Shown here: one piece after another, positions 2,365-36,007 of the stretch
Numbering within the stretch: position 1 is the first letter of the stretch
Layout of the letters: each line of letters starts with the position of its first letter
Assembly (NCBI GenBank): GCA_015296085.1
Contig: DVDT01000005.1
Location: 62,001-126,000, forward strand
Length of the DNA: 64,000 nt
DNA from: Trichormus sp. M33_DOE_039
GTDB taxonomy: Bacteria > Cyanobacteriota > Cyanobacteriia > Cyanobacteriales > Nostocaceae
Direction: 5' to 3'
Notes under the pieces: model-generated
What the model saw: only the letters and a program-made list of their open reading frames with translations
Database searches by the model: none
What the model was told of the DNA's origin: nothing
Made by a program: the position numbers and the translations under genes

Positions 2365-3233
2365 TTGCTTCCCTACATAGCTACCGCGATTGAATATTAT
2401 AGCGGTTTAGGGGGTTTTGCGTACTCCTCAGTTAACTGACTTACACTCACAGCTAGGGCAGAAATATTCAAAACAGTGTAAATACCTCTTGAAAGCGAGG
2501 AATTGCAAAAGTTTATTTCTTCATTCATAGAGGGGATATCGCTACCATCTCATAATTTACAATCAGCCTTTTAATAGAGGACTTTTTTTATTACAGTTTG
2601 TAAATTTCTTAATAAAAAATGTAATCGTGATTTCTTTTTTTCTATTTTTTTAGTGTTGCCGAATACATTTTATGACGATAAAAATAATTTCTTATCTAAA
2701 AATTCAATGTTTAGAATTATTTAATAATCACTTCGTAAATGAAATTTTTATTAATTTTAGAGAGTTCAAAAAAAATATCGGAAACAATATTTTCTTTTTC
2801 AATAAGGGTTTATGGATTTTCAGTTATTACTGAATTGAATTTTTAATCAATAATAATAAACAGTATATTTATCCAAAAAAATATAATCGATTCTGTTTGT
2901 ATAGTATTAAAATATTTTCTCAATACTTCTTAACAAAAAAGATATACGAAGCAGTATATAAAAATATTTTGTAAGGGTTAAAAGAAAAACAAAGAAAATG
3001 AATCCTCAAGCTAAGAGAGAATTCATTGCTCTTGATAATGACAGTAATACTTCACAGAAATGAAGGATTACTTAGTTTTTCTCATCAAAGTTATGCCATT
3101 GAAAAATAGAAGTTTGACTTTGCTTAGACATAATGCTCTGTTTGATAAAAAGTTAAAAACTCAATTTTTCAATTCCTGACTGAACCCCTCAATCAATAAT
3201 TCCCAATTAATCAAAATTTAGGAGATTAAAACT
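2365..3233. promoter_or_regulatory. long AT-rich intergenic region upstream of the sulfur-poor cpc operon
   Basis: This is 869 bp with no convincing gene. It is very AT-rich from about 2570 to 2990 and lies between divergent genes. It must contain the cpcB3 promoter and leader. A possible 21-codon upstream reading frame (2998-3063) has no clear ribosome site. The cpcB3 start is preceded by TTTAGGAGATT, a good Shine-Dalgarno. The size and composition suggest complex regulation. In Calothrix the equivalent operon is induced by sulfur limitation, but no specific operator could be recognised here. Confidence 0.5.
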
Positions 3234-3755
3234 ATGGTGCAGGATGCTTTTTCCAGAGTTGTTTCCCAAGCTGACACAAGAGGAGACTATCTGAGCGATA
3301 ACCAGTTAGATGCTCTCATCGCTTTAGTTAAAGACGGTAACAAGCGTGTTGATGTTGTTAACCGGATTTCTAGCAATGCTTCTGCGATCGTTGCTAATGC
3401 AGCTCGTTCGTTGTTTGCAGAACAACCTGCATTAATCGCACCCGGTGGGAATGCTTATACAAGCCGTCGTGCTGCTGCTTGTGTGCGTGATTTGGAAATC
3501 ATCCTTCGCTATGTCACCTACGCAATTTTTGCGGGTGATGCTAGCGTTCTTGATGACCGGGCTCTCAACGGATTACGGGAAACCTACTTGGCCTTGGGAA
3601 CTCCTGGTGCTTCTGTAGCAGTTGGTATTCAAAAATTAAAAGAAGCTTCCATTGCTATTGCTAGTGACCCCAACGGTATTACTCGTGGTGATTGCAGCAA
3701 TCTCATTGCAGAAGTTGCATCCTATTTTGATCGCGCCGCAGCCGCAGTTGCTTAA
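3234..3755 (+). CDS. cpcB3: sulfur-poor phycocyanin beta subunit (cpc3 type)
   Basis: This is a full-length phycocyanin beta chain (173 aa) of the globin-like phycobiliprotein fold. It forms the alpha-beta disks of phycobilisome rods. The two bilin-binding cysteines are present (Cys in AAACVRDLE, the beta-84 site, and in TRGDCSNL, the beta-155 site). The motif [19 protein letters not shown] and the conserved Asn are intact. The start Met is the only methionine, and the usual non-chromophore Cys of DDRCLNG is Ala (DDRALNG). The paralogue at 9651-10169 has seven Met and three Cys. This matches the sulfur-sparing PC3 beta chain known from Calothrix PCC 7601. It has a strong RBS (TTAGGAGA), is first in its operon, and is followed by cpcA3 after 118 bp. 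Confidence 0.95.
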
Positions 3756-3774
3756 CCCTCATTTGTCACTCTAT

Positions 3775-3832
3775 TAGACCTCTTGCATTAAAGCCAAATC
3801 AGGCTAAAACAGCGATTTTTGCAAGAAGTCTA
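3775..3832 (+). promoter_or_regulatory. intercistronic hairpin between cpcB3 and cpcA3
   Basis: The arms TAGACCTCTTGCA (3775-3787) and TGCAAGAAGTCTA (3820-3832) pair at 12 of 13 positions around a 32-nt loop. The hairpin lies in the spacer between two genes that must be made in equal amounts. An mRNA-processing or stabilising role is therefore more likely than termination, since no clean T-run follows. The role is inferred. Confidence 0.5.
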
Positions 3833-3873
3833 TTCCACCAATTTTTTTAAGAGAAATTAGGAGAAATTCTTCC

Positions 3874-4365
3874 ATGACCAAAACACCCTTAACTGAAGCA
3901 GTAGTTGCAGCTGATTCCCAAGGTCGTTTTTTGGGTAGCACCGAAATCCAGGTTGCATTCGGTCGTTTCCGTCAAGCATCTGTCAGCTTAGAAGCAGCAA
4001 AAACACTTTCCAAAAAAGCATCTAGCTTGGCTGAAGGTGCTGCGAATGCTGTTTACCAAAAGTTCCCCTACACCACCACCACACAAGGCTCTAACTACGC
4101 CTCTTCCCAAACAGGAAAAGACAAATGTGTTCGCGACATTGGCTATTACCTGCGGATTATTACTTACGGATTAGTTGTGGGTGGTACAGGCCCCATCGAT
4201 GATTATTTGATTGCTGGCTTGGCTGAAATCAATCGTACCTTTGAACTATCTCCTAGCTGGTACATTGAAGCTCTCAAATATATCAAAGCGAATCATGGTT
4301 TAACTGGTGATCCTGCTGTAGAAGCAAACTCCTACATTGATTATGTAATCAATGCTCTGAGCTAG
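3874..4365 (+). CDS. cpcA3: sulfur-poor phycocyanin alpha subunit (cpc3 type)
   Basis: This is a phycocyanin alpha chain (163 aa) with the alpha-84 bilin cysteine in [14 protein letters not shown] and the usual KTPLTEAV N terminus and [11 protein letters not shown] terminus. It contains one Met (the start) and one Cys (the chromophore site). The paralogue at 9069-9557 carries three Met and two Cys. Where the paralogue has MITYCLV, TSMQG and LRM, this copy has IITYGLV, TTTQG and LRI. It pairs with CpcB3 in rod hexamers. The bilin would be attached by CpcE/CpcF, encoded downstream in convergent orientation. The RBS is TTAGGAGAAA. Identification is by sequence. Induction under sulfur limitation is known for the Calothrix homologue and inferred here. 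Confidence 0.95.
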
Positions 4366-4858
4366 TACAGACCAGTGTCAATACAGCAGCGAGTGCTGAG
4401 TTGATTAAGCAGATAAGCTTTGCAGTTTTGTGTAACAAGGATAAGGAAAATGATTTGGTAATTGTGCCATCGATATGAATTGAATTACCAGATAATTTTC
4501 AGTCGTCTGTAGTGCTGTTACACCAAACTGGATGTTAAGTTTGCAGCCGTAAAATGTTGCAATTTTGCAAAAGCGTCGAGCATTTGCGTGGTAAGTTGGG
4601 AAAGTTTTTATACTGGCTTAATAATGTGTTAGAAGTCTATTTTAATTGGCTGAAACTCTTATTTCGCCAGTGTTGACGACCTTCCAACTTATTACGCAAG
4701 GCTTTTTCTTAGATAAGGAAAAATTTTGAAAAGTTGTTAATTAAATTTTCAATTTTGAATTCCCTAAAAGAGTTGAATTTTTTGTAACTTTAATTTTCAC
4801 AAATTCTGAGATTGATTCTGATTTTGAGAAATTTTCAACATAAGGAACAGGTCAGATT
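4366..4858. other. 493-bp gap inside the cpc3 operon with a possible relic of another phycobiliprotein gene
   Basis: No functional gene is visible between cpcA3 and the first linker gene. On the minus strand, ATG at 4583 is followed by codons for MLDAFAK, the start of a phycobiliprotein beta chain, and then loses all similarity. The 17-mer TTTTGCAAAAGCGTCGA here (4563-4579) is identical to the start of the cpcB paralogue at about 10150. Two flanking words, TTGGGAAAGTTT (4596-4607) and TTTCGCCAGTG (4662-4672), also recur upstream of that paralogue (10297-10308 and 10242-10252). Inverted arms GTAAGTTGGGAAAG and CCTTCCAACTTATTAC (about 4591 and 4680) could form a long hairpin. A separate promoter or attenuator for the linker genes is plausible. 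Confidence 0.45.
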
Positions 4859-5674
4859 ATGGCAGCGTTAACAGAAGCAAGCCGATTAGGAATCCGTCCG
4901 TTCGCAGACAGTACAAAAGCTGAATTGCGCTTTGTGAAAACGCCAGAGGAAGTACAGTCAGTTATTTGGGCTGTATATCGTCAAGTTTTAGGTAATGAGC
5001 ATCTGTTTGAAAGCGAGCGACTGTCTAGTGCTGAATCACTTTTACATCAGGCGCAGATTACAGTGCGGGATTTTGTGCGGGCGATCGCTCTATCAGAACT
5101 TTATAAACAAAAGTTTTTCTACACCAACTCACAAGTTCGCTTTATTGAACTTAATTATAAGCATCTACTCGGTCGCGCTCCCTACGATGAATCCGAGATT
5201 GCTTACCACGTTGATCTATATAATTCTCAAGGTTACGAAGCCGAGATGAATTCTTACATTGATTCTGTAGAGTATCAACAAAGCTTTGGTGATGCCATAG
5301 TACCTAACTATCGAGGCTTTCAAACGACAATTGGACAAAAAACCGTAGGATTCCCCCATTTTTTCCAATTGTATCGAGGCTACGCCAATAGCGATCGCGC
5401 TCAAAATCAACCTCAAGGAAGATTAACTTGGGATTTAGGGAAAAACTTAGTATCTCCCATTTATCCTGCGGCTAGTGGTTCTTTAACCGGAGTTACCACA
5501 GGGAATCGGGGTGGTAATACCTATCGGATTCGTGTGACACAAGCCGCTGCCGCCAACTCCCCCCGAATTAGACAAAGCATTACAGAAGTAGTTGTCCCAT
5601 TCGATCAGTTATCGAATCGCTTACAACAACTAAATCGCCAAGGAGGCAAAGTCATCAGTATTGACCTTTCATAA
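4859..5674 (+). CDS. cpcH3: phycocyanin rod linker, sulfur-poor (CpcH3 type)
   Basis: The 271-residue rod linker has an N-terminal linker domain (PBS_linker_poly, about 20-150) with [33 protein letters not shown] and [18 protein letters not shown] basic spacer rich in Gly/Thr follows. The C terminus is a CpcD-type domain (about 218-271, YRIRVTQ...IREV...[13 protein letters not shown]). It joins phycocyanin hexamers in the rod and tunes their absorption. It has no Cys and only two Met (the start and one in EAEMNSY), where ordinary rod linkers carry more. It is the first of two tandem linkers that share the near-identical segment [21 protein letters not shown] long 493-bp gap separates it from cpcA3. 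Confidence 0.92.
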
Positions 5675-5787
5675 AATTCCAGAACTGACGCAACAAACTT
5701 TGGACATGGGGCATAGCAAATTGGTTAATTTTCCCCGCCCTATGCCCAGCCCCAGTTTTTTAAGTTGTTCACCTAGGAGACTTTTCG

Positions 5788-6654
5788 ATGGCTATTACAA
5801 CAGCCGCATCCAGACTCGGAACTTCTGCATTTAGTAATGCTGCTGCGATTGAATTACGTTCCAATGCTACTCAAGCAGAGATTACACTGGTAATTGCTGC
5901 TATTTATCGCCAAGTTCTAGGTAATGATTATTTACTGCAATTTGAACGGCTAAAGGGTTTGGAATCGCTTCTCAGCAATAGAAATATTACGGTACAAGAA
6001 TTTGTCAGACAGTTAGCAAAATCGGATCTATACAAATCAAAGTTTTTTTCTAATAACTTTCATAGCCGATTTACAGAACTCAATTACAAACATCTGCTCG
6101 GTCGCGCTCCCTATGATGAATCTGAGATAGCCTATCATTTGGATTTATATCAAAACCAAGGATACGAGGCTGATATTGATTCATATATTGACTCCATCGA
6201 ATATCAGAGCAATTTCGGCGATAATATAGTGCCTTATTATCGGGGATTTTCAACTCAAGCTGGGCAGAAAACTGTCGGCTTTACCCGAATTTTTCAACTT
6301 TATCGCGGTTATGCAACTAGCGATCGCTCCCAAATTCCCGGAAAGTCTGCGCGTTTGGCGAGTGAATTAGCAAAAAATAGTGCAACATCAGTTATTGCAC
6401 CTGCGGGTAGTAACAATGGTTTTGCTTATCGTCCTGCCCCCAGAGGACAAACTCCCAGCAGTGCGTTTCAAGGCTCACAAGCTTTTGGTCAAGGACGACT
6501 TTATCGTGTTGAAGTCGCTAGTATTTCTCAACCGGGCTATCCCAAGGTACGCCGTATCAACCAAGCTGCGATTATTCCCTACGAAGAACTATCTAATTAT
6601 TTTCAACAAGTTCAGCGTCGGAACGGCAAAATTGCCACCATCACGCCACTTTAG
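5788..6654 (+). CDS. cpcI3: phycocyanin rod linker, sulfur-poor (CpcI3 type)
   Basis: This is the second rod linker (288 aa), with the same layout as its upstream neighbour: linker domain (about 20-150, [45 protein letters not shown]), spacer, and CpcD domain (about 232-288, YRVEVASIS...[10 protein letters not shown]). The only methionine is the start, and there is no cysteine. The two genes are close enough (113 bp) to be a tandem duplication that has diverged. The RBS is CTAGGAGAC. Linkers of this pair set rod length. Which one is proximal or distal cannot be read from the sequence. Confidence 0.92.
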
Positions 6655-6803
6655 GGACTTCCAACTAAAAAAATATACAATCGCTTTGGTAAGCAGGGGG
6701 AGCAGGGGAAGCAGGGGAGAAAGAAGAATACAATGATCATCTTTGCTCTGACCCATTGAATAATTTATTTTCTGAAAGTCCCTTAATAAGTTAGGACATC
6801 AAC
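6655..6803. repeat. spacer with short tandem repeat (GCAGGGGA-type)
   Basis: The spacer between the second linker gene and cpcD3 carries an imperfect tandem repeat (about 6693-6722) of the cyanobacterial STRR class (gggggagcaggggaagcagggga). No gene is seen. The cpcD3 start at 6804 has only a weak ribosome site. Confidence 0.6.
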
Positions 6804-7016
6804 ATGGTTTATCAAAATCGTAGCTTTCAGCTTGAAGTATCGGGTCTACATCAAAATGAGGTAACTGATCAAAACAATTACCCGATTCGCTCTAGTGCCA
6901 GTGTGTTGATTACAGTACCTTTTAGCCGATTTAATCAAGAACTCCAACGAATTAACCGTTTGGGTGGGAAAGTTGTCAATATTCAACCATTAACTTTGCA
7001 AATCGAAGAAAGTTAG
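6804..7016 (+). CDS. cpcD3: small rod-capping linker CpcD, sulfur-poor
   Basis: The 70-residue protein consists of a single CpcD domain (FQLEVSGLHQNEV...VLITVPFSRFNQELQRINRLGGKVVNIQPL). It caps the core-distal end of the rod. The usual family length is 70-85 aa. The start Met is its only sulfur residue. It is the last gene of the forward cpc operon. A perfect palindrome 35 bp downstream separates it from the convergent cpcF. Confidence 0.92.
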   Translation: MVYQNRSFQLEVSGLHQNEVTDQNNYPIRSSASVLITVPFSRFNQELQRINRLGGKVVNIQPLTLQIEES

Positions 7017-7117: not shown

Positions 7118-7936
7118 TTATTCCTCGGTGTTGTGAGCGATTGACACTGCTAGTTCCCGATAGCGGCGCGGATCACCTTCTGCAAATACTAGACGTTCCT
7201 GACCCTTACGCTCATAAAGTTTCTCTAGAATCATCTGCCAATCTGTAGCAGACAGTGGTGAAGGTTGATCTTCAATCTCAGGTGAGTGCATCAGTGTCTC
7301 AGCTTGGAGTTGCTGTTGTGCCATGCACGCACGCGCCCGGACTGCCCAACTGCTATCGTTGTTTAGTATCTGCTCTAATTGAGCCTGGATTTGCGATCGC
7401 CATTCTGTGTAGCTGGGAGCGATCGCATTTGCTAGGGCTTGTAATCCTACAACAGCAGAGTAGCGTACCACCCATTCATCATCTTGCTGTGCCACAAATA
7501 GGAGAGCTTCCAAAGCTTCTTCTTGGGCAATTTCCAATAAATCTTCTGGAAACCAGTGCCACTTCATCATTCCCAAGCCCCTAGCGGCTGCCCGTCGGAC
7601 ACTTAAGGCAAAGTCAGCGGTGGCAACTCCCAATAAGGTAACTAATCCTCTAGGATCACCAATGCCAGCTAGGGCGCGGATTGCCCAAGCTCTTGCTGTG
7701 TAGTTGTGGCGATCAAGTTGCTCTAGTAATGGGGGAACTGCTGGCTCTCCCAGTTGAATTAACCCGTCAACTGCTGCTACTGCTGCTCCCGGATTGTTAT
7801 AGCTGAGGGCTGCAATCAAGGTTGGAATAGCTCCTTCTAGACGAGCCGCCGCCAAGTTCTGCACTGCTTCTAACAAAAGACTAGAAGAATCTGCGGCTTC
7901 TACAGCCCGAATTAAGGAGGAAAGGTGATCGGCCAT
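7118..7936 (-). CDS. cpcF: phycocyanobilin lyase subunit CpcF
   Basis: The HEAT-repeat protein (272 aa) forms with CpcE the heterodimeric lyase that attaches phycocyanobilin to Cys-84 of CpcA. Signature phrases are SLIRAVEAADSSSLLLEAVQNLAAARLEGAIP, NNPGAAVAAVDGLIQLGE, NYTARAWAIRALAGIGDPRGL and FALSVRRAAARGLG. The first 215 or so residues match the usual CpcF. A C-terminal extension (about 220-272, containing DWQMILEKLYERKGQERLVF and GDPRRYRELAVSIAHN) looks longer than in many homologues and is not made of HEAT repeats. It follows cpcE by 59 bp on the same strand. It is not depleted in Met/Cys, as expected for a low-abundance enzyme. Confidence 0.9.
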   Translation of the reverse strand: MADHLSSLIRAVEAADSSSLLLEAVQNLAAARLEGAIPTLIAALSYNNPGAAVAAVDGLIQLGEPAVPPLLEQLDRHNYTARAWAIRALAGIGDPRGLVTLLGVATADFALSVRRAAARGLGMMKWHWFPEDLLEIAQEEALEALLFVAQQDDEWVVRYSAVVGLQALANAIAPSYTEWRSQIQAQLEQILNNDSSWAVRARACMAQQQLQAETLMHSPEIEDQPSPLSATDWQMILEKLYERKGQERLVFAEGDPRRYRELAVSIAHNTEE

Positions 7937-7995: not shown

Positions 7996-8823
7996 TTACA
8001 ACAATTCATCCATCAAGGTCATGACTTTGATTGCCCCTGGCGATATCTCTAGGGGTGTGGTGAGTTGTAGTTGTGCCTCTAATACACCTTTCAAGGAGAT
8101 CAGCTTGAGGCTATTTTCTGCGAGAGTCTGGGCGATCGCATCCGCTGCTGGTAAATATCCAATCGCGCCTAAATCTGCTAATACAGCTCGTCGCAACTGC
8201 AAATCATCGTTAGCGAGGGCTTGCACTAAGCGATCGCCATATTGACTAGCAAGTTGGGGGTCAGGCGTGAGCTGATACATAGCACGTGCTGCGGCAAATT
8301 GCACACGGGGGACAAAATGATCGAGAAAAGGCAGAATATCAGGAATTGCATTTTGTGCGCCAAGAGTTCCCAAGGCTTCTAGAATCGCATCAAAGGGTTG
8401 AGCCAGTTGGGGCGGTTCTGGTGCGGGTAATGTGCCGGGAACTTTGTCGTTAAGTAGCTCGATCAATCTGGGAATACAGGATAAATCCCCCAACATTTCC
8501 AAAGATTGAGCGGCTGCTTCCCGGACGTAGAAATCCGAACATTCTAACGAGCGCATTAAAGCTGGAACAGCTCGTTTGTCTCCTAATTTCCCTAAAGCTC
8601 TAGCTGCATTGCGCCGCAGAGGATAACCACCTGCATCTGTGCGATCATCTTCATCTTCTAAGGAGGTAATTAAGACATCGATCGCTTCCGGCTCGTTCAC
8701 CCGAAACCGTCCCAACCACCAAGCAGCATAGACCCGTAATCCCAAATCTTCACCCTGAAGATTGGCGATCGCCTGTTCTACCGTTAATGAACTATCGCTT
8801 TGAATCTCAGATGCTTCATCCAT
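7996..8823 (-). CDS. cpcE: phycocyanobilin lyase subunit CpcE
   Basis: The 275-residue HEAT-repeat protein is the CpcE half of the alpha-84 phycocyanobilin lyase. Characteristic segments are LTVEQAIANLQGEDLGLRVY, AAWWLGRFRVNEPEAIDVLI, GGYPLRRNAARALGKLGDKR and FYVREAAAQSLEMLGDLSCI. It stands downstream of the minus-strand cpcB-cpcA, separated by a hairpin and a long heptamer-repeat stem. This arrangement fits low-level read-through from a very strong operon. Because the sulfur-poor CpcA3 also keeps Cys-84, the same lyase probably serves both alpha chains (inference). The ATG at 8823 lies in a typical context. Confidence 0.93.
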   Translation of the reverse strand: MDEASEIQSDSSLTVEQAIANLQGEDLGLRVYAAWWLGRFRVNEPEAIDVLITSLEDEDDRTDAGGYPLRRNAARALGKLGDKRAVPALMRSLECSDFYVREAAAQSLEMLGDLSCIPRLIELLNDKVPGTLPAPEPPQLAQPFDAILEALGTLGAQNAIPDILPFLDHFVPRVQFAAARAMYQLTPDPQLASQYGDRLVQALANDDLQLRRAVLADLGAIGYLPAADAIAQTLAENSLKLISLKGVLEAQLQLTTPLEISPGAIKVMTLMDELL

Positions 8824-8862: not shown

Positions 8863-8980
8863 GAAGGGGTGTAAGGGTGTAGGGGTGTAAGAGTGTAAGG
8901 GTATAGAGGATGTTTAACATCTACACCCCTATATTCCTATACCCCTATACCCCTATACCCTTACACCCCCATACCCCTTC
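8863..8980. repeat. long STRR inverted repeat between cpcA and cpcE
   Basis: Heptamer-type repeats (gggtgta / tacaccc, with variants gggtata / tataccc) run outward from a centre near 8921. The outer ends GAAGGGGT (8863-8870) and ACCCCTTC (8973-8980) are exactly complementary. The transcript could fold into an imperfect stem of about 50 bp per side. The same heptamer family recurs at about 12513, 30003, 56473, 58055 and 60170. Confidence 0.7.
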
Positions 8981-9068: not shown

Positions 9069-9557
9069 TTAGCTTAATGCGTTGATAGCGTAGTCGATGT
9101 AGGAGTTTGCTTCAACAGCAGGATCACCGCTCAAACCGTGGTTAGCTTTGATGTACTTGAGAGCTTCAACGTACCAGCTAGGAGACAAATCGAAGGTACG
9201 GTTGATTTCAGCAATACCACTGATGAGGTAGTCATCCAATGGGCCTGTACCACCAACAACTAAGCAGTAGGTGATCATCCGCAAGTAGTAGCCGATGTCA
9301 CGTACACACTTGTCTTTACCTGTTTGGGTAGAAGCGAAGTTAGGCCCTTGCATGGAGGTGGTGTAAGGGAATTTTTGGTAAACTGCGTTAGCAGCACCAG
9401 AAGCCAAGCTAGAGGACTTTTCGGTCAAAGCTTTAGCTGCTTGGATGCTAGCTGAAGCTTGACGAAAACGACCAAAAGCGATTTGAATTTCGGTGGAGCT
9501 GAGGAAACGACCTTGGGAATCAGCAGCTGCTACTGCTTCGGTTAGAGGGGTTTTCAT
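9069..9557 (-). CDS. cpcA: phycocyanin alpha subunit (ordinary composition)
   Basis: This is a phycocyanin alpha chain (162 aa) with the bilin cysteine in [15 protein letters not shown]. It is very close to CpcA3 but keeps three Met and two Cys ([15 protein letters not shown]). The start at 9557 (MKTPLTEAV) is chosen because it matches the family N terminus and is preceded by GGAGAG. A longer frame upstream would add 24 unlikely residues. It forms rod disks with the CpcB encoded 93 bp upstream. No linker genes follow. The next genes are cpcE and cpcF. It may be a constitutive or light-regulated set, but which of these cannot be decided from the sequence. Confidence 0.95.
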
Positions 9558-9650
9558 TGTGGGATTCTCTCCAAATAATCTTGTTTTAAGGATTTTATTG
9601 ATCACTCGAAACCGCTTGTGGCGGATCAAATCAATGGCTAAGTGGCTTTA

Positions 9651-10169
9651 TTAAGCAACTGCTGATGCAGCCTTATCAAAGTAGCTAGCTACTTCAGCCA
9701 TCAAAGCAGAGCAGTCACCACGGGTAATACCATTGGTATCACCAGCGATCGCCAATGCAGCATCCTTCATTTTTTGAACGCCAACTGCTACAGAAGCACC
9801 AGGAGTTCCCAAAGCCAAGTAGGTTTCTTTCAAACCGTTGAGGCAGCGATCATCTAAAACACTAGCGTCACCAGCAAAGATTGCGTAGGTGATGTAGCGC
9901 AGGATGATTTCCATGTCGCGCAAGCAAGCAGCCATACGACGGCTTGTGTAAGCATTTCCACCAGGTGCGATTAATGCAGGCTGTTCTGCGAACAATGCAC
10001 GAGCTGCATTTGCAACGATTGTAGAAGCATTGCTGGTGATGCGGTTTACAGTGTCCATGCGCTTGTTGCCATCTGCAACCATCGCACTCAAGGCATCTAG
10101 TTGAGAAGTGGTGAGATAGTCACCGCGTGCGTCAGCTTGGGAAACCACTTTTGCAAAAGCGTCGAACAT
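9651..10169 (-). CDS. cpcB: phycocyanin beta subunit (ordinary composition)
   Basis: This is a 172-residue phycocyanin beta chain with bilin cysteines at beta-84 (MAACLRDME) and beta-155 (TRGDCSAL). The usual extra Cys in DDRCLNG is also present. It has seven Met and three Cys, against one and two in CpcB3. The start at 10169 (MFDAFAKVV) is favoured by TTAGGAGA upstream and by the family N terminus. An in-frame TTG three codons earlier is rejected. It is the first gene of the leftward cpcB-cpcA-(cpcE-cpcF) group. Confidence 0.95.
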
Positions 10170-10647: not shown

Positions 10648-11397
10648 CTACTCGCTGGTAACAAGCAATTTTCGTTCCAGGTCAAATAAGAAGCCGTGAA
10701 TATACTCCTCCGTCCACTCAGCACCATAAAAGCGAGTAAACATTCCTCTGGCTGGGTCTTTCTCCGCTCGATAGCGTAGATAACGCAGTTGCGCCTGTTC
10801 AATTTCTTTTAAAGACTGAGTGTCAGTAATGGGTTCTGCCTGCTCCACAAAATCCAGATAAGCCTGGAGATAGTCTTTAAAAGCAGCAAAAACATGAGTT
10901 TCTACGACTTCCGTTTGTTGCGTACGAGTCCAGAGAAACGCAGGTGAGAAAAAAGGTTGGGCTTCGGCGGGAAAGTCACCTCCCCAGGGTAAATGCTGCT
11001 GATGTGACTGAAAAATTGGCAGGATAGGCTGGGTATACTTTGCCTGATACATCGGATCATCCCGAAATAGAGGCTGCATATCCAAAGCAATCAAGTGACC
11101 TCCCGGCAAAGTAACTAAATCTGCGCCAAAAAAGGGCAAATCGTAGTTTAAATGCGGAAAAATCACGAAATTTAATACCTGGAGTGAATTTCCTCCCTGG
11201 ACATGAGCCGCTCGGATTTGGCGGAGTTTAAGAGATTGATAGGCGTGGCTAGTCGTCAAAACCTCTTCCTGATGTTTGCCTTTACCTACTGTTGCTTGCT
11301 TTGACTCAAATCCGGCAGGAATTGGATAAGGGCGCAAATCCAAACGTTGCTGCAAAAGCGCGATCGCATAATCTAAAAACGGTTGATAGAGAGTCAC
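10648..11397 (-). CDS. pebB: phycoerythrobilin:ferredoxin oxidoreductase
   Basis: This ferredoxin-dependent bilin reductase (249 aa from the GTG start) converts 15,16-dihydrobiliverdin to phycoerythrobilin. Family marks include YPIPAGFE near the N terminus, [45 protein letters not shown] and [20 protein letters not shown]. The GTG at 11397 gives [12 protein letters not shown], the usual PebB start, and has GAAGGGA just upstream. The longer TTG start at 11418 lies in an 'attttgaattttgaa' repeat and is rejected. It follows pebA and completes the two-step pathway from biliverdin, so the organism should carry phycoerythrin or phycoerythrocyanin-type pigments. Confidence 0.93.
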
Positions 11398-11508
11398 GTC
11401 CCTTCGCTCCGACTTCAAAATTCAAAATACCCTACGGGTTCGCGCAGCGTTCCGCAGGAAAGGCTTGCGCCTACAAAATTCAAAATGACTACTGATGACT
11501 ATTGACTT
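11398..11508. repeat. repeat-filled pebA-pebB spacer
   Basis: The short gap is made of dispersed repeats: 'ttcaaaattcaaaat' copies and a GC-rich piece 'ctacgggttcgcgcagcgtt' with its imperfect complement. Pieces of the same type occur near 1540 and 13250. No gene is seen. Confidence 0.5.
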
Positions 11509-12240
11509 TTATTTGCCAGCCTTAGCTGCTAAAGGCACAGCATCCTCAAACAAAAATTCATGTAAAAATTTTTCTGACCATTCATGACCAAAATAGCTAC
11601 TGAACAAACCGGATGCTGGATCACGGTCTGCACTGTATTGGTCGTAATCCTTTTGAGCTTTGACAATCCGTTGAATGTCTGACTGATCATTCAGAGGTTG
11701 GGCGGCTTCTAGCATTTGCCAGTATAAATTCAAATAATCTTTGAAAGCTTCAAATACCCGCGTTTTCACAGTTTCGGCATCAGTTTTAGCGAACAACAGA
11801 TATTTTGAAAAATACTGATTAGCATCATAAAACTTCATTTCCAGATCTTGTGCCAAGTCTGGATATTTCTCATGCAATGCCTGCAACGGTTGGATATATT
11901 TTTTTAGATAAGCTTCATCCTGAAATAAAGGTTGGAAATCCATCACAATCAGGTTTTTGACCTGACCAAAAGACAGAAAATCGATACCAAGTAAGGGCAA
12001 CTCATAATAGTGGCTAGGATAAATCACACTATTCATGATTTGTGCGCTTGCACCTGCATCAATGTAGGTATAACGAATTTTTCGCAATTCAGGACATTGA
12101 TAACACCAGCTTTGAATTGTCGCAGGGTTTCTACCGCGATCACTGACCTTATATTCTAGTCCCGGTGGAATTGGGCGACTCTGTAATGTAAACCGTTGCA
12201 AAAGCGATTGTTCCAGATGCTCAAGAAAGCACTTATACAT
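11509..12240 (-). CDS. pebA: 15,16-dihydrobiliverdin:ferredoxin oxidoreductase
   Basis: This 243-residue ferredoxin-dependent bilin reductase carries out the first reduction of biliverdin IX-alpha to 15,16-dihydrobiliverdin. Shared FDBR blocks are IPPGLEYK, MNSVIYPSHYYELPLLGIDFL, LIVMDFQPLF, RVFEAFKDYLNLYW and DPASGLFSSYFGHEWSEKFLHEFLF. These are parallel to those of pebB downstream, which takes over the intermediate. The ATG at 12240 is in the normal family position. pebA-pebB adjacency is typical of phycoerythrin-making cyanobacteria. Confidence 0.94.
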   Translation of the reverse strand: MYKCFLEHLEQSLLQRFTLQSRPIPPGLEYKVSDRGRNPATIQSWCYQCPELRKIRYTYIDAGASAQIMNSVIYPSHYYELPLLGIDFLSFGQVKNLIVMDFQPLFQDEAYLKKYIQPLQALHEKYPDLAQDLEMKFYDANQYFSKYLLFAKTDAETVKTRVFEAFKDYLNLYWQMLEAAQPLNDQSDIQRIVKAQKDYDQYSADRDPASGLFSSYFGHEWSEKFLHEFLFEDAVPLAAKAGK

Positions 12241-12634
12241 AAGATTTATAGATTCATCTGCCTTAACCTCTGAGAATAAGGGATTCCCTGACGACTAGTC
12301 TCAAATATGTTAAACAAAGTAACGATCCTTAACGTGATCAATTAATTTGAGATTTTTTAGCAATTTTTGATGCCCACCAGTGAGCGTCCTACTTCTGAGC
12401 GTAGGTTGAAAGCTATGGAGATTGTGTTATCTGTTTATTGCTATTCCCATTCCCCATTCCCCCTTTCCTAACAGGTGTAGGTTTTTTGCGCTTTGCCTAT
12501 AAGACACTGTTTTAGGGTGTAAGGGTGTAGGGGTGTAGGGGTGGATGAAAATATCATTCTGTCGTTAGTTTGATAGTCATCACTCACTGCTCTATTAAAA
12601 ACCTACAGCTGTAAGTTCCCCATTCCCTCTGACT
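12241..12634. other. intergenic region between the CpeS-type gene and pebA
   Basis: No gene is seen in this 394 bp. It contains STRR heptamers (gggtgta, about 12513-12543) and 'attccccattcccc' repeats. The pebA promoter presumably lies in the 12241-12400 part, but no motif is assigned. Confidence 0.5.
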
Positions 12635-13222
12635 CTACACGGATGCCCTAGACAAATTGTGTTGCACCATTTTTGCTAAATTTGTCTCAGTTAAATAGCG
12701 GCGTTCGGAGCAGTAAGTCATCAAATACACACCATTCATCATTCGCACCGTGCTGACTCGCACTCGAAAATCATCCGTCATAAACCAGCAGCGTTCTTGT
12801 CCTTGGTTGCTCTCATATTCGGTATCGATGGTTAAAATACCGTCTTTCCCAAACCAGTAGCGGCTGACCACGGGAATTCTTTCTACATAACCTTGATTAC
12901 GTAGCAATTTTCCTGATTGTCCAGTCTCATCATCAGGTACATCAATTAACACAGCTGCTTGATCGGGATTGGGTTCTCGATCATCCTCATGTTCTTGCCA
13001 CATAAAGCTAGCTCCACCATTGGCTTTGATGGGATTGATGTTTTGCTGTTCACAAATGGCTTGGACTCGTGGGTCATCCCCTGTAATCACATTTACATAG
13101 AGCTTTGATTCTCCCGACTGATCCGCCACCGTATCAAAGTGATGTACTGTGCGTTGCGTAAACCAGACCCCTTCACTTTTACGGAAAAATTCCATCATCG
13201 TCATTGGTGGTAAAAATTGCAT
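12635..13222 (-). CDS. cpeS: CpeS/CpcS-family phycobiliprotein lyase
   Basis: The 195-residue protein has the lipocalin-like CpcS/CpeS fold. The helix-strand entry (MEFFRKSEGVWFTQRTVHHF) precedes beta strands including YVERIPVVSRYWFGKDGILTI, QERCWFMTDDFRVRVSTVRM and VYLMTYCSERRYL. Members attach bilin to Cys-84-type sites on alpha or beta phycobiliproteins. Position beside pebA/pebB suggests a phycoerythrobilin-handling member, but several paralogues (CpeS, CpeU, CpcS) look alike, so the symbol is provisional. The first ATG (13222) is taken. ATGs at 13204 and 13198 are possible, and none has a strong ribosome site. Confidence 0.75.
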   Translation of the reverse strand: MQFLPPMTMMEFFRKSEGVWFTQRTVHHFDTVADQSGESKLYVNVITGDDPRVQAICEQQNINPIKANGGASFMWQEHEDDREPNPDQAAVLIDVPDDETGQSGKLLRNQGYVERIPVVSRYWFGKDGILTIDTEYESNQGQERCWFMTDDFRVRVSTVRMMNGVYLMTYCSERRYLTETNLAKMVQHNLSRASV

Positions 13223-13428
13223 AAAAGAATTTTAGATTTTAGATTTTGGATTTTGCGGAAATTTGCTACGCGGGGCTTTCCCCAGTAAAGCAAACCTTCC
13301 TAGAGGAAATTTTAGATAGAAATAATACTAAGCTTTAACAATCAACATTTATCAGTAAACGCTTAACCTGCTTGATTTGTAGATGGGTCGCGGTACAATA
13401 CCCCTAAATAATCTCACGATTTCAACCC
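13223..13428. promoter_or_regulatory. divergent promoter gap with short inverted repeat
   Basis: This gap lies between the divergent lyase and pentapeptide genes. It contains 'tttgctacgcggggctttccccagtaaagcaaa' (13261-13293), in which TTTGCT and AGCAAA can pair around GGGGCTTTCCCC. It is similar to the small dispersed hairpins of this genome. No promoter is assigned. Confidence 0.4.
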
Positions 13429-14247
13429 ATGATCAGCAAGGAGACTTACAAGACACCCCAAGACGTTTTGGCTGTCCTCAAGATAGGACTGACTTTGGCT
13501 CAGGAAGACTTGTATCAATTTAATCTCAGTGGATTTGATTTACCAAAAGCTAATTTGCATCAAGCCACTTTGATTCGCGCCAATCTCAGCCAAGCGAATC
13601 TCAGTGAAGCGGATCTGAGTCAAGCAGACTTACGAGGAGCGGATCTGAGGCAAGCTATTTTGCGGGACGCTAATTTACAAGCAGCGTGTTTGTATCGAGC
13701 TGATTTGAGTGGGGCAGATTTACGGGGAGCTAATTTATCGGATATTAAGTTGCTAGGCGCAAGGTACGATAGTCACACCCTTTTCCCAGAAGGCTTTATC
13801 TACAAATCCTCTGGAGCGATCGGCCCGAATGCGAATTTAAACGGGGCGCAGCTCAATACAGCTAATTTGCGTCATGTAGATTTGCAGGGTGCAAGTTTGT
13901 TGGGGGCATATTTGGGAGGTGCTGATTTGACTCTTGCTAATCTCCAAGGAGCGCGATTGAGTCAAGCAGACTTGCGAAAGGCCTGTTTGACGGGAGCATT
14001 TTTACGTAATGCTCGGTTAAATGGGGTGAATTTGGCTGGGGCAGATTTGCGAGCCGCAGATATGACTGGTGTTGAATTTGAGCAGTTTGAAAGTATTGCT
14101 GGAGCAGATTTCAGCCATGTTCAAGGGCTGAGTGATGAAATGAGATCGCGCCTCCTCAGCCAGCCTGCACAAGAGTTAGACACGCCCCACGCGTTAACCC
14201 GAAAAACTACAAGAGCCAGCCTAGAAAGTCTATCTACTAAGATTTAG
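13429..14247 (+). CDS. pentapeptide-repeat protein (272 aa)
   Basis: After about 35 residues with a short helical segment (DVLAVLKIGLTLAQEDLYQF), A(D/N)LXX repeats form two right-handed quadrilateral beta-helix runs (about 38-110 and 135-225). They are separated by a loop with YDSHTLFPEGFIY, an insert often seen in cyanobacterial members. The tail is unstructured and Thr/Ser-rich. No signal peptide or membrane span is seen. The family is abundant in cyanobacteria and mostly of unknown function. It lies in the phycobilisome island, but nothing in its sequence ties it to phycobilins. Its 3' end overlaps the convergent 68-aa gene by 11 bp. Confidence 0.85.
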   Translation: MISKETYKTPQDVLAVLKIGLTLAQEDLYQFNLSGFDLPKANLHQATLIRANLSQANLSEADLSQADLRGADLRQAILRDANLQAACLYRADLSGADLRGANLSDIKLLGARYDSHTLFPEGFIYKSSGAIGPNANLNGAQLNTANLRHVDLQGASLLGAYLGGADLTLANLQGARLSQADLRKACLTGAFLRNARLNGVNLAGADLRAADMTGVEFEQFESIAGADFSHVQGLSDEMRSRLLSQPAQELDTPHALTRKTTRASLESLSTKI

Positions 14248-14443
14248 TTGCTATCCAATCTTTCTTAAGCAGTGCCAAAAAAGTCGCAATCCCTTTAGAA
14301 AATCCAGGTGGATCTGGTAAAACATACTGCGGGAAATCTTCATAGGGTCGCCACTGCTCTGACGAATTATGCCGCAAGTACAATACTCGATCAACCCCTT
14401 CCAATTTCCAGAGCATTTGACCGCCAGTGGGAATTTCCGCCAT
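14237..14443 (-). CDS. small hypothetical protein (68 aa)
   Basis: This is a 68-residue protein with a Trp/Tyr-rich first half (MLWKLEGVDRVLYLRHNSSEQW) and a helical, basic tail (FLALLKKDW). A strong Shine-Dalgarno (ATAGGAGAAAG) sits just upstream of the ATG at 14443, which is the main reason to accept it as real. An overlapping frame from 14463 lacks such a site. It overlaps the end of the convergent pentapeptide gene. No family is recognised. Confidence 0.65.
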   Translation of the reverse strand: MAEIPTGGQMLWKLEGVDRVLYLRHNSSEQWRPYEDFPQYVLPDPPGFSKGIATFLALLKKDWIATKS

Positions 14444-14731
14444 GTCTTTCTCCTATGGTGCAAATATAAATACTCAGTAACAATTGACTATTGTCCAATT
14501 CTGCCAATCTAAATATTAAATTCTGTAAGCATCGTTACAATAAATCTAGACTTTTGTGTCGAATTACTGTAAGCGTGTAGATACATTATAGAAATATCTC
14601 ACTCAGCGAGGTATGACTGAGAGGAGTATTTTTTGCTCTGGCGATCGCAATTATGGAGTGACGACAGGTTACAGGTTACAGGGGAAGCAGAGGAGAAAAA
14701 CCAATTACTCCTACTCAGCACTCAGTACTCC

Positions 14732-15391
14732 TCACGGGATTAAATCTTCCATTGCTGCTCCCACAACACGGTAATCAACATCCTGTCTCAGTTCCGCTAG
14801 AGCTGCTTTAGCTGCGGGGTGATCAAAATTTTTCAAGGCATAGGCAACCCGTACCCGAATATATTCAAACTCAGAATTTTTAAGGGTTAGAAGTTGAGAT
14901 AAAGCCGCTTCCGACTGGCGAGAATTTACCAACGCTCCCAACGCATCCACAGATGCTTCTTGTACTGCGGTATCTTCTCCTGCTATTCCCAAAACACAAA
15001 TTTCTAGTACTTCTTCAGGACAATCCATCTCTACCAACGCGGCTAGAATGCTACGACGCACCAACCAATGATCATCGCGTACAAATGTCTGCACTAAATG
15101 AGAAGCCGAAATTCTACCAAACAAAGACAGCGAATTAGCCGCTTCTGCCCGCACATTAGGTGTGTTGTCCAACTTCATGATTTGCAGGAGAGCAGCAAAG
15201 GATTCAGATGTTTTTTGCTTGCCCAACTCCCTAGCTACAAAAGTCCGCACCAGAAATTCAGGGTCTTGAATATGGCGGCTGAGTAAAGGCACAGCAACAT
15301 CAGTTGGATAATCTTGAAGGGCAGAGATGGCCTTGAGACGGTATTGAAAATCGGTATTTTGCAGATTGGTTTCGATTTGATTGAGATCCAT
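14732..15391 (-). CDS. HEAT-repeat protein, phycobilin-lyase-like (219 aa)
   Basis: It is built entirely of five to six HEAT/PBS-lyase repeats (YRLKAISALQDYPTDVAVPLL, LVRTFVARELGKQKT, VRAEAANSLSLFG, WLVRRSILAALVEM, VQEASVDALGALV, IRVRVAYALKNFDHP). The length of 219 resembles CpeZ, PecF and NblB-type proteins. Its place among pebAB and lyase genes suggests a role in bilin attachment, chaperoning or phycobilisome turnover, but the subtype cannot be decided. It follows the DUF1838 gene by 66 bp on the same strand, probably in one operon. Confidence 0.7.
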   Translation of the reverse strand: MDLNQIETNLQNTDFQYRLKAISALQDYPTDVAVPLLSRHIQDPEFLVRTFVARELGKQKTSESFAALLQIMKLDNTPNVRAEAANSLSLFGRISASHLVQTFVRDDHWLVRRSILAALVEMDCPEEVLEICVLGIAGEDTAVQEASVDALGALVNSRQSEAALSQLLTLKNSEFEYIRVRVAYALKNFDHPAAKAALAELRQDVDYRVVGAAMEDLIP

Positions 15392-15457
15392 ATCAATAAG
15401 AAATAGGGCTGTAGGGGTACGAGGGTGTAGACAAGAACAACTAATTACTAATGATTT

Positions 15458-16249
15458 CTATTCTGCAATGGGAAAGCTTTCTCCACTTAGGTAAGCAGCA
15501 AAGTGTTGCTTAAAATATAGCGTACTTGTCATATTTGGCTCATCGCTGTGGTCGGGGGTAAATTCATAAATTGGGACTTGTTCACGAATTAGTTGAATTA
15601 AATTGGGATGCAGTTGTTCAAAGTGATCAACACGAGCTGTTGTAGTCTCAAATCGCAAGCGGGCTGGATGACCATAACCCAGTTTCATCCAAGGTAGCCA
15701 GGGACAATTTCGCGCCCACTTTGCAGGAGGCAGATGAGTTACTCCTGGACGGCCAATGTGGCTGGTGAAATACTCTGTCCCATGAAAGGTTTCACCAGGA
15801 CAATAGTCTCTGTACTTGGCATCTGCTGCTAATGGATGTGGATAAGTCAGGGGGATTTCTACGACAGAGGTCACATAATCTTGTCCTTGAGGAATTACCG
15901 TTAGCTTCGGTCGGACAGATCCTTGTACGATGCGATTGGCAATATGTACGATTGGTACGGCAGGACGGGTGGAGTCGGGTTGCCATGTGTGCAGGATGGC
16001 TTGGGTCTGTGGATCACAAAATAGACCTAACTCTCGATTAATCCGATAACCCACTTGCTCAAACTCAGGATTGGGACGCATGAAAACCTTGGTAGCATTC
16101 ATCCCGATAATCGAGAATAATTTCTGCCACTCCCCATCGCCTGACTCTTGCCACCAGACTTCCCCCTCCCAACGGTAGTAAAGTTGCTGGCCATGATATT
16201 TTCTATAGAAATCTAGATTATTAAATGTGTAGTCTTCTGAATTATTCAT
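15458..16249 (-). CDS. DUF1838-family protein
   Basis: This is a 263-residue soluble protein without signal peptide or transmembrane span. Marks resembling the DUF1838 family include YYRWEGEVWWQESGDGEWQKLF, the VGYRINRELGLFCDPQT segment with LHTWQP, and a Pro/Trp/His-rich centre (WARNCPWLPWMKLGYGHPARL). The biochemical role is not known. It sits directly upstream of a HEAT lyase-like gene, which suggests work on phycobiliproteins or bilins, as with other DUF1838 genes near pigment clusters (from memory, inference). The ATG at 16249 is in normal context. Confidence 0.65.
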   Translation of the reverse strand: MNNSEDYTFNNLDFYRKYHGQQLYYRWEGEVWWQESGDGEWQKLFSIIGMNATKVFMRPNPEFEQVGYRINRELGLFCDPQTQAILHTWQPDSTRPAVPIVHIANRIVQGSVRPKLTVIPQGQDYVTSVVEIPLTYPHPLAADAKYRDYCPGETFHGTEYFTSHIGRPGVTHLPPAKWARNCPWLPWMKLGYGHPARLRFETTTARVDHFEQLHPNLIQLIREQVPIYEFTPDHSDEPNMTSTLYFKQHFAAYLSGESFPIAE

Positions 16250-16362
16250 GGTTTCTCAAGAAACTACCACTACAGTGTTACTAATACTAATAGAATTATT
16301 TGCCATAGCCCTGATTAAAATTTGCCAGGGGTTCTAACTTTTAGCCAGTCGATTTATACGTT

Positions 16363-16944
16363 ATGACTCAGCCACAATTGAGTGACAAGGTTCGCGAACT
16401 GATCCAGAAGTCGCGGATTGTCAGTTTTGCTACTTGGGACAACACCCATCCCCCAGAAGCGATTCAGCGATTCCAGGCGGCAGATGACGAGGGACGCTAC
16501 CTGACGGACGAAGATTTACAGCAAATACAACAGCTTGCACCCTCAACTACAGCACTGATTGCCGTCACTCAGAATCTACGCGATCGCGTCACTGAAATCG
16601 TTGATGAAGCCAGAACCGATGTATTGGCTAAATTTCCCGATATCACTCAACCTGGTGGTGGACTTTACCCGCCAGCTAGAGCAGATGCTTGCTGGCGTGA
16701 TTTTTGGCACTTCTTGCGCTGTATTACTTATGGTATAGCTGGTCAGCATACTGACTACACAAGCACTGAGGGATTACATTATATGCAATTATTGTATAAA
16801 GAATTACAAGTGCCGCTCGATGCAATGGTAGTCGGACTAGAAGGAATCAAAGCAGCCAGTTTAAAGCGAGTCAAACTAGAGCAGCAAGCAACCCTTGCTC
16901 CCTATTTCGATCATTTGATTGAGCAATTAAAGCAATTTCGCTAA
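16363..16944 (+). CDS. divergent phycobiliprotein-like protein (193 aa)
   Basis: This is a phycobilisome-fold protein that is neither a phycocyanin nor an allophycocyanin subunit. The N-terminal 65 residues are unusual (VRELIQKSRIVSFATWDNTH), then the globin-like region follows. Landmarks are IQRFQAADDEGRYLT (as in AADSQGRFL), VTQNLRDRVTEIVDEARTDVLAKFPDITQPGG (as in the NA..LFAEQP..IAPGG block) and RADACWRDFWHFLRCITYGIAG. In the last, the Cys corresponds to the alpha-84 bilin site. It may therefore bind a bilin and act as a sensor, chaperone or breakdown factor. The gene converges on an NblB-like gene, and the two 3' ends overlap by 18 bp. Confidence 0.8.
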   Translation: MTQPQLSDKVRELIQKSRIVSFATWDNTHPPEAIQRFQAADDEGRYLTDEDLQQIQQLAPSTTALIAVTQNLRDRVTEIVDEARTDVLAKFPDITQPGGGLYPPARADACWRDFWHFLRCITYGIAGQHTDYTSTEGLHYMQLLYKELQVPLDAMVVGLEGIKAASLKRVKLEQQATLAPYFDHLIEQLKQFR

Positions 16945-17604
16945 CTTTTGTAGCGATCGCATGGCGGCTTCTGCGACCAAGGGATTACTATCTTGCTGTA
17001 AGCCGTCTAGAGCGGCTTGGCTTTGAGCAACAGGAAGATTACCCAAGGCTTCTGCTAACCGTTTCCGCAGCATCCAATCATCTGCATTCACAAACAGCAA
17101 CAGACGATCAATCACATTAACAACGCCAATCTCACCCAGAGCCATGATTGCTGCTTCTTGCAGTAAGGGATTATGACTATCCAAGGCTTCTAGTAAAACT
17201 GCTTGAGCTTGGACATCTTTTAAATTGCCCAAAGCCACCGCCGCACTAAACTGCACTAACCAGCTAGTATCTTCATAAAAAGCATGACGCAGAGGAGCTA
17301 AAGCTTGCTGATCCTCTAAATATCCTAAAGCCCCAGCCGCCATTGCCCTGACATTATAATCTGGGTCAGACTCCAATACACTGACTAAAATTGACCGATT
17401 TTCAGGAGTTTGTTTAATACCCAGAGAAAAGGCCGCCATACCACGAATCTGGACATTCTCATCATTGATAGCTTGTTTGATGAGAGGATAAGCATCTTGA
17501 ACTGGCATAGTCTCTTTTTGCAGTTCAATCATGGCTAAAATGCGATCGCTCACATTTGAGCTATTCAACTGTGCGGCAATTTGTTCGAGGCTGGGTTGGT
17601 TCAT
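16927..17604 (-). CDS. NblB-like HEAT-repeat protein
   Basis: The 225-residue protein has about six HEAT repeats (VQIRGMAAFSLGIKQTPENR, YNVRAMAAGALGYLEDQQAL, WLVQFSAAVALGNLKDVQA, LLQEAAIMALGEIGVVN, WMLRKRLAEALGNLPVA). The order and length fit the group annotated as NblB. These are lyase homologues involved in phycobilisome degradation during nutrient stress, thought to remove or handle bilins. This is family knowledge. Assignment to NblB rather than another lyase-like protein is an inference. It faces the divergent phycobiliprotein gene, with an 18-bp overlap of their ends. Confidence 0.65.
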   Translation of the reverse strand: MNQPSLEQIAAQLNSSNVSDRILAMIELQKETMPVQDAYPLIKQAINDENVQIRGMAAFSLGIKQTPENRSILVSVLESDPDYNVRAMAAGALGYLEDQQALAPLRHAFYEDTSWLVQFSAAVALGNLKDVQAQAVLLEALDSHNPLLQEAAIMALGEIGVVNVIDRLLLFVNADDWMLRKRLAEALGNLPVAQSQAALDGLQQDSNPLVAEAAMRSLQKLAKLL

Positions 17605-25757: not shown

Positions 25758-26103
25758 GATTAACTTTTGTTGCGATTTATCCAGACCAAGATCTAGCGCA
25801 AAGTAGGACAATTGGCAATCTTTTAGTTAAATCTAATTGTTTGATAGTGCCAAGTGTTTATTTGAATTGCCATCGGAGACAAGCTAAATTTTCCCCATAC
25901 CCATGATTTTGATATTTCAATACTGTTAATAATTGCAACTCAGTATATAAACTTCCTGAGTAGGAAAAGTCATTATACATCATAAATATATGTTGCAATT
26001 TGCACAGTCTGACATAGCGTAAAGTGGAAAAATTTTCAAGCTTTTTTCCTCAATCTACTTGGCGTATAGTCGTAATCTGTTCACAAGCAACAATACTTTT
26101 TCT
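25758..26103. promoter_or_regulatory. divergent promoter region of nrdJ
   Basis: The 346-bp gap upstream of nrdJ is AT-rich and without repeats or genes. No cobalamin-riboswitch core could be recognised. Promoters for both neighbours are expected here. Confidence 0.4.
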
Positions 26104-35938: not shown

Positions 35939-36007
35939 TCATCCTAAAAATTCCGAATTATATAAACAAATTCTTCTAAACTCTTTCTCTGCATTTAGGT
36001 TAATAAA

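Follow-up and report, generated by a model that had tools for sequence, protein, structure and literature searches.

What does an operon for the most abundant antenna protein, almost free of sulfur amino acids, do in a cyanobacterium that also carries ordinary phycocyanin, and how far does the sulfur saving reach? The operon lies at 3234-7016 of the window, the whole 64,000-nucleotide stretch of Trichormus sp. M33_DOE_039 analysed here, where cpcB, cpcA, two linker genes and cpcD follow one another in a single direction. The features are as follows:

2922..3233, + strand: upstream region of cpcB3, candidate regulatory region; the closest relatives share a similar block at about 2922-2978; AGGAG lies before the start
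3234..3755, + strand: cpcB3, phycocyanin beta, 173 aa; no internal Met, Cys83 and Cys154 only; TIGR01339, 295.3 bits (cut-off 279.3)
3874..4365, + strand: cpcA3, phycocyanin alpha, 163 aa; no internal Met, Cys85 only; TIGR01338, 297.4 bits (cut-off 269.45)
4859..5674, + strand: rod linker, 271 aa; PF00427 and PF01383; Met130 the sole internal Met, no Cys
5788..6654, + strand: rod linker, 288 aa; PF00427 and PF01383; no internal Met, no Cys
6804..7016, + strand: cpcD3, rod-capping linker, 70 aa; NF058509, 102.2 bits (cut-off 80); no internal Met, no Cys
7118..7936, - strand: cpcF, alpha-Cys84 bilin lyase subunit of the ordinary set; NF058515; convergent with cpc3
7996..8823, - strand: cpcE, alpha-Cys84 bilin lyase subunit; NF058502
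9069..9557, - strand: ordinary cpcA, 162 aa; two internal Met plus the start, two Cys; M-KTPL start
9651..10169, - strand: ordinary cpcB, 172 aa; six internal Met plus the start, three Cys; M-FDAF start

The profile scores of CpcB3, CpcA3 and CpcD3 exceed the curated family cut-offs and place the operon in C-phycocyanin. In the I/H naming, the linkers at 4859..5674 and 5788..6654 would be of the cpcI3 and cpcH3 type; the one Met that persists in the former counts against full stripping. A recount of the translations agrees with the sequence-only reading of this locus, which had reported a single internal Met and three Cys, all bilin-binding, in the 965 aa of the five proteins. The bilin sites are Cys83 and Cys154 of CpcB3 and Cys85 of CpcA3, and Ala replaces the non-bilin Cys of ordinary CpcB. 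Against the other genes of the strain, the yardstick which that reading had proposed, the operon is poorer in Met and Cys than chance: among 263 ORFs chosen mechanically (100 aa or longer; the window plus 17 further stretches of its genome) the median is 2.63 Met+Cys per 100 aa, so that about 25 are expected for the operon and 4 are found. None of 12,957 random five-ORF sets of similar total length is as poor. Since phycobilisome linkers are low in Met and Cys in general, the genome's other linker-bearing cpc operon (contig C14) is the fairer yardstick; its B, A and two linkers hold 16 Met+Cys, versus 4 in cpc3 (Poisson P 0.0004). By a sequence count in which the start Met follows the aminopeptidase rule, an alpha-beta pair contains 3 sulfur atoms in cpc3, compared with 15 and 14 in the two ordinary pairs of the genome.

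The seven and three Met and three and two Cys given earlier for the ordinary CpcB and CpcA, start Met included, are likewise reproduced. The genome carries two ordinary cpcBA sets beside cpc3 (contig C14; window 9069-10169), not the one previously assumed. The normal Met/Cys content claimed for the adjacent lyases and bilin reductases is confirmed for CpcE (Met+Cys 5+2), CpcF (5+1) and PebA (4+3) and fails for PebB, which is low, with 3 Met and 0 Cys in 256 aa. The proposal that selection touches abundant products and no others oversimplifies: ApcA (4 Met), ApcB (4 Met) and RbcL (12 Met, 7 Cys), all abundant, are undepleted in this genome.

The cpc3 identity and its sulfur-sparing interpretation are well supported: CpcB3 sits within a Met-free clade of 32 rows (support 97* in one tree, 98* in another) with many Calothrix copies, and thus belongs to the same gene lineage as Calothrix cpc3, PCC 7601 itself being absent from the loci. 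Wherever a cpc3-type CpcB occurs in the genomes searched, at least one other CpcB accompanies it (25 of 25). The cpc3 operon of Calothrix/Tolypothrix sp. PCC 7601 is reportedly the subject of Mazel and Marliere 1989 and Gutu et al. 2011; it is known as a sulfur-depleted operon beside ordinary ones, like the one here, which differs in belonging to another strain and in adjoining, convergently, the ordinary cpcB-A-E-F cluster. On its sequence, the operon at 3234-7016 is well supported as a further member of this known sulfur-sparing type. In a passage of PMC4424289, Tolypothrix PCC 7601 is said to produce sulfur-amino-acid-depleted antenna proteins under low sulfate. A passage of PMC12269360 gives the cell-wall polypeptides of Chlamydomonas as an example of sulfur-sparing protein replacement; as in cpc3, a protein is swapped for a low-sulfur version, but the proteins and organisms are others, and excision of the start Met is unmentioned in that passage.

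The altered N-termini of CpcB3 and CpcA3, missed in the sequence-only interpretation, extend the saving. CpcB3 starts with M-V-QDAF, one residue longer than the ordinary M-FDAF, and CpcA3 with M-T-KTPL, one residue longer than the ordinary M-KTPL. Methionine aminopeptidase removes a start Met followed by a small uncharged residue (PMC1266368). Val and Thr are such residues, so the enzyme should remove the Met of both subunits, while subunits with the ordinary M-F and M-K starts should retain theirs; the start Met of CpcB3 and CpcA3 is accordingly predicted from the sequence to be excised and recycled. The GTG at codon 2 of cpcB3 is ruled out as an alternative start, because Met-free copies there also carry GTA, GTC, GTT, ACA and GCT, which points to conservation of the amino acid. 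Native-MS work (PMC13022049), whose calculated masses were compared with measured ones, treats the start Met as absent from ApcA, as retained in phycocyanin alpha and, in phycocyanin beta, as lost 0 to 1 times. Anabaena-type subunits in PDB 9w7k are listed without the start Met (TLDVF, VKTPIT), and nearly identical CpcB in PDB 22vh, 7eyd and 9w4j are listed with it.

Among 235 unique CpcB/CpcA pairs, identical pairs being counted once, both subunits have a small second residue in 48 of the 48 Met-free pairs, which span five lineages, and in 13 of the 187 others. For CpcB the residue is small in 48/48 without internal Met versus 0/118 with at least five; for CpcA, in 59/71 without Met versus 4/132 with at least two. 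Rod linkers have small second residues in depleted and ordinary operons alike and are thus uninformative. The 80 named loci are the best 80 of 153, picked for likeness to CpcB3, so that sample frequencies are not natural frequencies; 55 pairs newly drawn by a general family profile include no Met-free pair. Six rows among the 235 pairs are phycoerythrocyanin-like (the second pair of L196, and L268-L272, of which L271 was identified individually), and seven CpcB that lack a CpcA partner are left out (six Met-free with MV starts, one a 51% relative); among the six unpaired Met-free CpcB, L007 and L017 included, some are one gene entered twice. Six CpcB were left out of the general-profile draw, one of which (L317) re-entered paired as L341. 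The genome-wide search for CpcB copies covers 50 of the 80 loci (outside it are the depleted loci L004, L013, L019, L020, L025, L028 and L037), and one further list of loci comprises the best 20 only.

The operon is very probably a cpc3-type sulfur-sparing set, which would replace ordinary rods in low sulfate and extend the saving to the start Met. By analogy with Tolypothrix PCC 7601, a cell short of sulfate would make cpc3 rods instead of ordinary ones, and low sulfate would induce cpc3 in place of the ordinary set. Each alpha-beta pair would then cost three sulfur atoms, those of the three bilin-holding Cys, because the extra Val or Thr between Met and the old second residue would let the Met be excised and reused; in this the benefit to the cell would presumably lie. 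Upstream of cpcB3, the block at about 2922-2978 is similar across the closest copies in an alignment of six upstream regions, and a wider alignment of 18 regions contains no common regulatory element beyond AGGAG. A pattern built from the block has no match in the window, even at its own place, where the window copy differs in length. Promoter-like sites (5, versus a shuffle mean of 12.8) are fewer than in shuffles, terminator-like sites (5 versus 4.1) equally many, and no Rfam family is found within window positions 1-22000.

Replacement is not the only mode. The earlier proposal of a swap for a sulfur-cheap form agrees with the coexistence of ordinary sets in this genome, but in 23 of 23 genomes of a Nostoc lineage no phycocyanin other than the low-sulfur operon is found, and the same is seen in at least one Anabaena-type genome (G341), so that a swap is impossible there. 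(The labels 'Nostoc lineage', 'Anabaena-type' and 'picocyanobacterial' for G-numbered genomes are our own, from tree place or identity.) The sole-copy operons found in Nostoc/Desmonostoc include those of L033, L034, L070-L072, G176, G294 and G331; in the five L-numbered ones both rod linkers lack Met. Like cpc3, this operon has 0-1 internal Met in CpcB/CpcA, retained bilin Cys and a small second residue; unlike cpc3, it is the only phycocyanin found in its genome, has a CpcD with 2 Met and arose separately, at the main cpc locus. ApcA and ApcB were sought in 25 genomes (the sequences read do not include those of Met-free Nostoc G431, and two Pseudanabaena gave a distant paralogue only). Allophycocyanin alpha is Met-free in all six sole-copy Nostoc sequences read. 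ApcB of the low-sulfur Nostoc genomes gains an extra residue (M-QDAIT to M-A/S-QDAIT) and still has 1-3 internal Met; three cpc3 genomes in which ApcA has 1-2 Met carry that residue too. RbcL is at most weakly a further depleted protein, with 7-12 Met in seven Met-free Nostoc genomes versus 12-13 in three ordinary ones and 7-8 Cys in both.

A single ancestral eradication, spread from one cpc3 ancestor by transfer or gene conversion, would explain all Met-free copies at once. The first tree indeed groups Nostoc Met-free CpcB with cpc3, and the identity of three such CpcB is 0.81-0.86 with four cpc3 copies, against 0.81-0.83 with three Nostoc orthologues, so that they do not clearly side with their own lineage. 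Once variable Met/Cys columns and N-termini are removed, however, phycocyanin with at most one internal Met cannot be placed on the tree in fewer than five changes, each of them imposed by starred branches. An AU test on the 90-row set rejects one clade uniting every Met-free row (p 0.00025), although the group was defined with a tree already in view and the test makes no correction for that. The linkers place the Nostoc Met-free group within the Nostoc lineage (99*), its cpc genes share synteny, flanks included, with those of partly depleted Nostoc, its CpcA is 0.85-0.89 identical to Nostoc versus 0.76-0.83 to cpc3, and several Met sites carry different replacement residues in different lineages. 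A single origin is rejected on all these grounds and is very improbable. Every Met-poor lineage loses 7.5 to 8.0 Met and 1.1 to 2.1 Cys per pair, offset mainly by Leu and Ile.

Depletion might also protect the antenna against desiccation, light and reactive oxygen, sulfur saving being a by-product. Met and Cys are both prone to oxidation, and some sole-copy Nostoc are desiccation-tolerant, for example N. flagelliforme, which is among those found here (L048). Yet the other oxidation-prone residues do not fall jointly (per pair, Trp changes by 0 to +1, Tyr by -0.6 to +2.7 and His by -0.5 to +1.9), an extra residue that recycles Met fits sulfur saving better, and the low-sulfate production ascribed to PCC 7601 in the passage of PMC4424289 points the same way; oxidation protection is an unlikely main cause. 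Somewhat less unlikely, though still doubtful, is that the extra residue serves translation or protein stability, or marks lineages, Met excision being incidental. A large second residue is kept in 12 of 71 CpcA without internal Met, and a small one is already present in 20 of 56 CpcB with 3-4 Met and in a few CpcA (4 of 132) with at least two, so that Met loss and a small start residue are not always coupled. Independent contrasts of the two have means of 2.4-3.9 one way and 0.0 the opposite way, but are few and not significant alone (median p 0.125-0.5). Against this stand the presence of the small residue in both subunits of every Met-free pair, its absence from CpcB rich in Met, and the occurrence of the extra residue in CpcB, CpcA and ApcB with differing residues (V, T, A, S).

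In conclusion, phycocyanin has probably been stripped of sulfur at least five separate times, each stripping reaching the start Met through an added small residue, and permanently so in one Nostoc clade, where the sole phycocyanin and two rod linkers have 0-1 internal Met, allophycocyanin alpha has none, and almost only bilin Cys are left. The literature covered, outside which lay the primary cpc3 papers (1989, 2011), yielded no earlier account of the repeated stripping, the start-residue pattern or the sole-copy Nostoc mode. The comparison makes a familiar example of atom-level economy into a natural experiment with replicates, with several lineages and partly depleted copies beside Met-free relatives, and yields a prediction on the mature N-terminus of low-sulfur phycocyanin that is specific and cheap to test. 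Low-sulfur phycocyanin comes in two modes, as a spare copy or as the sole copy; in that Nostoc clade the second mode would make sulfur economy a standing trait of the antenna rather than an emergency swap.

The five cpc3 ORFs (window 3234-7016), read from the sequence alone as encoding 965 aa with one internal Met and three Cys, are borne out in that composition. In the translated ORFs, the sole internal Met is residue 130 of the first linker, and the only Cys are the three that bind bilin in CpcB and CpcA. In a profile search, CpcB, CpcA and CpcD all score above the cut-offs, and both linkers consist of PBS_linker_poly and a CpcD domain. Judged by 263 ORFs picked mechanically from this genome, the operon would be expected to hold about 25 Met and Cys, and random five-ORF sets are never as poor (0 of 12,957). 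The second linker-bearing cpc operon in the genome, on contig C14, has 16 Met and Cys in four proteins, versus 4 in cpc3.

The surrounding assembly (7.0 Mb, 116 contigs) contains three phycocyanin beta genes, together with phycoerythrin and allophycocyanin genes named by eye. The ordinary-set cpcF, cpcE, cpcA and cpcB lie on the opposite strand, convergent with cpc3. This layout recurs in Stenomitos (locus L007), Lyngbya HA4199 (L015) and Leptolyngbya FACHB-321 (L018), with 82-85% (CpcE) and 79-82% (CpcF) identity to the window proteins. A pigment gene island at 10648-17604 carries pebB, pebA, a CpeS-like lyase, a DUF1838 protein and HEAT-repeat proteins, with a divergent phycobilisome-domain protein inside it (16363-16944). 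Further along the window, a B12-dependent ribonucleotide reductase (26059-29622) is split by an intein-like insertion that carries LAGLIDADG homing-endonuclease domains; short tandem repeats with 7-8 bp units occupy 8867-8978, 29637-29679 and 56427-56516; and a lanthipeptide cluster is located at 35486-43111:

35486-35791, likely lanthipeptide precursor, 101 aa, with a GG motif and a tail with Cys/Thr
36008-39298, LanM-type synthetase (DUF4135 and LANC_like)
39324-41594, C39-peptidase ABC exporter of the cluster
41615-43111, HlyD-like protein, assigned by eye

Cpc3-type CpcB is present at 31 named loci, among the best 80 of 153, spanning 11 families and 7 orders from Nostocales to Chroococcales, including Microcystis. 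The Microcystis loci (L024-L028) carry a cpc3-type Met-free cpcBA, and the three genomes searched have another CpcB too. The cpc3 case itself is already known (PMC4424289, PMC12269360, PMC12016511); repeated origins, sole-copy use and start-Met excision as sulfur saving appear in none of the literature matches listed, a search outside which most subscription papers lie.

Origins were counted on a tree of 235 unique CpcB/CpcA pairs (quick search, SH-aLRT support), stripped of the N-termini and of every column ever holding a variable Met or Cys. Two of the 31 cpc3-type loci (L007, L017) are absent from the trees for want of a paired CpcA. Rows with no or one internal Met (50 in all) require five changes, all five forced by supported branches; the tree being unrooted, each may be a gain or a loss.

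Met-poor lineages (branch support in brackets)
1, cpc3 clade: 32 rows (97)
2, Nostoc/Desmonostoc: seven rows (99), within a 21-row lineage (98) with 14 partly depleted rows
3, Pseudanabaena biceps (L030): one of seven rows in its clade (100), the remaining six partly depleted
4, two Anabaena-type rows: L221 and L241
5, eight rows (96): from 8 or more of the 41 genomes in a single genus of family f18

In a 90-row set, a single clade of all Met-free rows is rejected (AU p 0.00025), as is a joint clade of cpc3 and P. biceps (p 0.0245). The Nostoc Met-free group is compatible with either the Nostoc or the cpc3 placement in this test; linkers, synteny and the larger trees put it with Nostoc. We take the f18 genomes to be picocyanobacteria. 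In their genus g105 (L340-L347, L351), a second, Met-free cpcBA accompanies other CpcB copies in no fewer than 8 of the 41 genomes.

The lineages differ in copy number. Among 49 genomes reached via the named loci and searched for CpcB (E up to 1e-60), at least two CpcB are found in 25/25 with a cpc3-type copy and in 4/4 Pseudanabaena, and a single one in 20/20 of the Nostoc lineage. Three more Nostoc-lineage genomes (99-100% complete, 5-7 contigs; E up to 1e-50) bring the latter to 23/23, eight of which hold a pair with no or one internal Met. G341, an Anabaena-type genome of the window's genus, has one phycocyanin and a phycoerythrocyanin-like gene; the second match in G100, also Anabaena-type, is similar to that of G341.

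Ordinary N-termini read M-F/L/Y-DAF in CpcB and M-KTPL in CpcA. Met-free copies are one residue longer: in CpcB, M-V/T/A comes first, then a large residue, then DAF or DVF, and CpcA begins M-T/S/A-KT or M-V-KTPI. A small second residue in both subunits marks 48/48 Met-free pairs versus 13/187 others (Fisher p 2e-38, for related rows with kinship ignored); independent contrasts of Met loss and start residue run in one direction, without significance. Considered alone, CpcA without internal Met lacks the small residue in 12 of 71 cases. Under the methionine aminopeptidase rule (PMC1266368), Met-free copies would lose the start Met. Native-MS calculations (PMC13022049, PMC12883523) count it as lost from ApcA and kept on phycocyanin alpha. 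PDB 9w7k gives Anabaena-type subunits without it, and the listings of nearly identical CpcB in 22vh, 7eyd and 9w4j include it. Predicted sulfur per alpha-beta pair is 3 in cpc3 versus 15 and 14 in the genome's two ordinary sets; 144 ordinary pairs average 15.1 (range 10-18).

Among other abundant proteins, ApcA of Met-free Nostoc has 0 Met in 6/6 examined; elsewhere the count is 4-6 across three ordinary genomes, 1-5 across four other cpc3 genomes and 4 in the genome of the window. Allophycocyanin alpha with 0 internal Met and 1 Cys occurs at L417-L422 and L426, in six Met-free Nostoc and one partly depleted genome. ApcB of Met-free Nostoc gains an extra Ala in 6/6, yet 1-3 internal Met remain. 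The extra residue is also seen in genomes G421, G426, G414, G341 and G100 and in cpc3 genomes G388, G389 and G398, and is absent from ApcB of the window's genome. RbcL shows no clear depletion.

At several sites the replacement residue differs by lineage (beta column 35: V/I, A/T, I, L); where partly depleted rows retain Met or Cys, the lineages mostly share one replacement. The non-bilin Cys of CpcB is Ala in 42/42 Met-poor rows counted (32, 7, 1 and 2 by lineage) and is kept in every partly depleted row of the same lineages (30/30) and every ordinary row (76/76). The eight f18 rows, outside this count, have three Cys in CpcB.

Every Met-poor lineage has lost 7.5-8.0 Met and 1.1-2.1 Cys per pair, offset chiefly by Leu and Ile. 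Trp, Tyr and His show no joint decrease, and nitrogen per residue is about equal (1.289-1.323 vs 1.292). These composition shifts point to sulfur and make it less likely that oxidisable residues are avoided in general.
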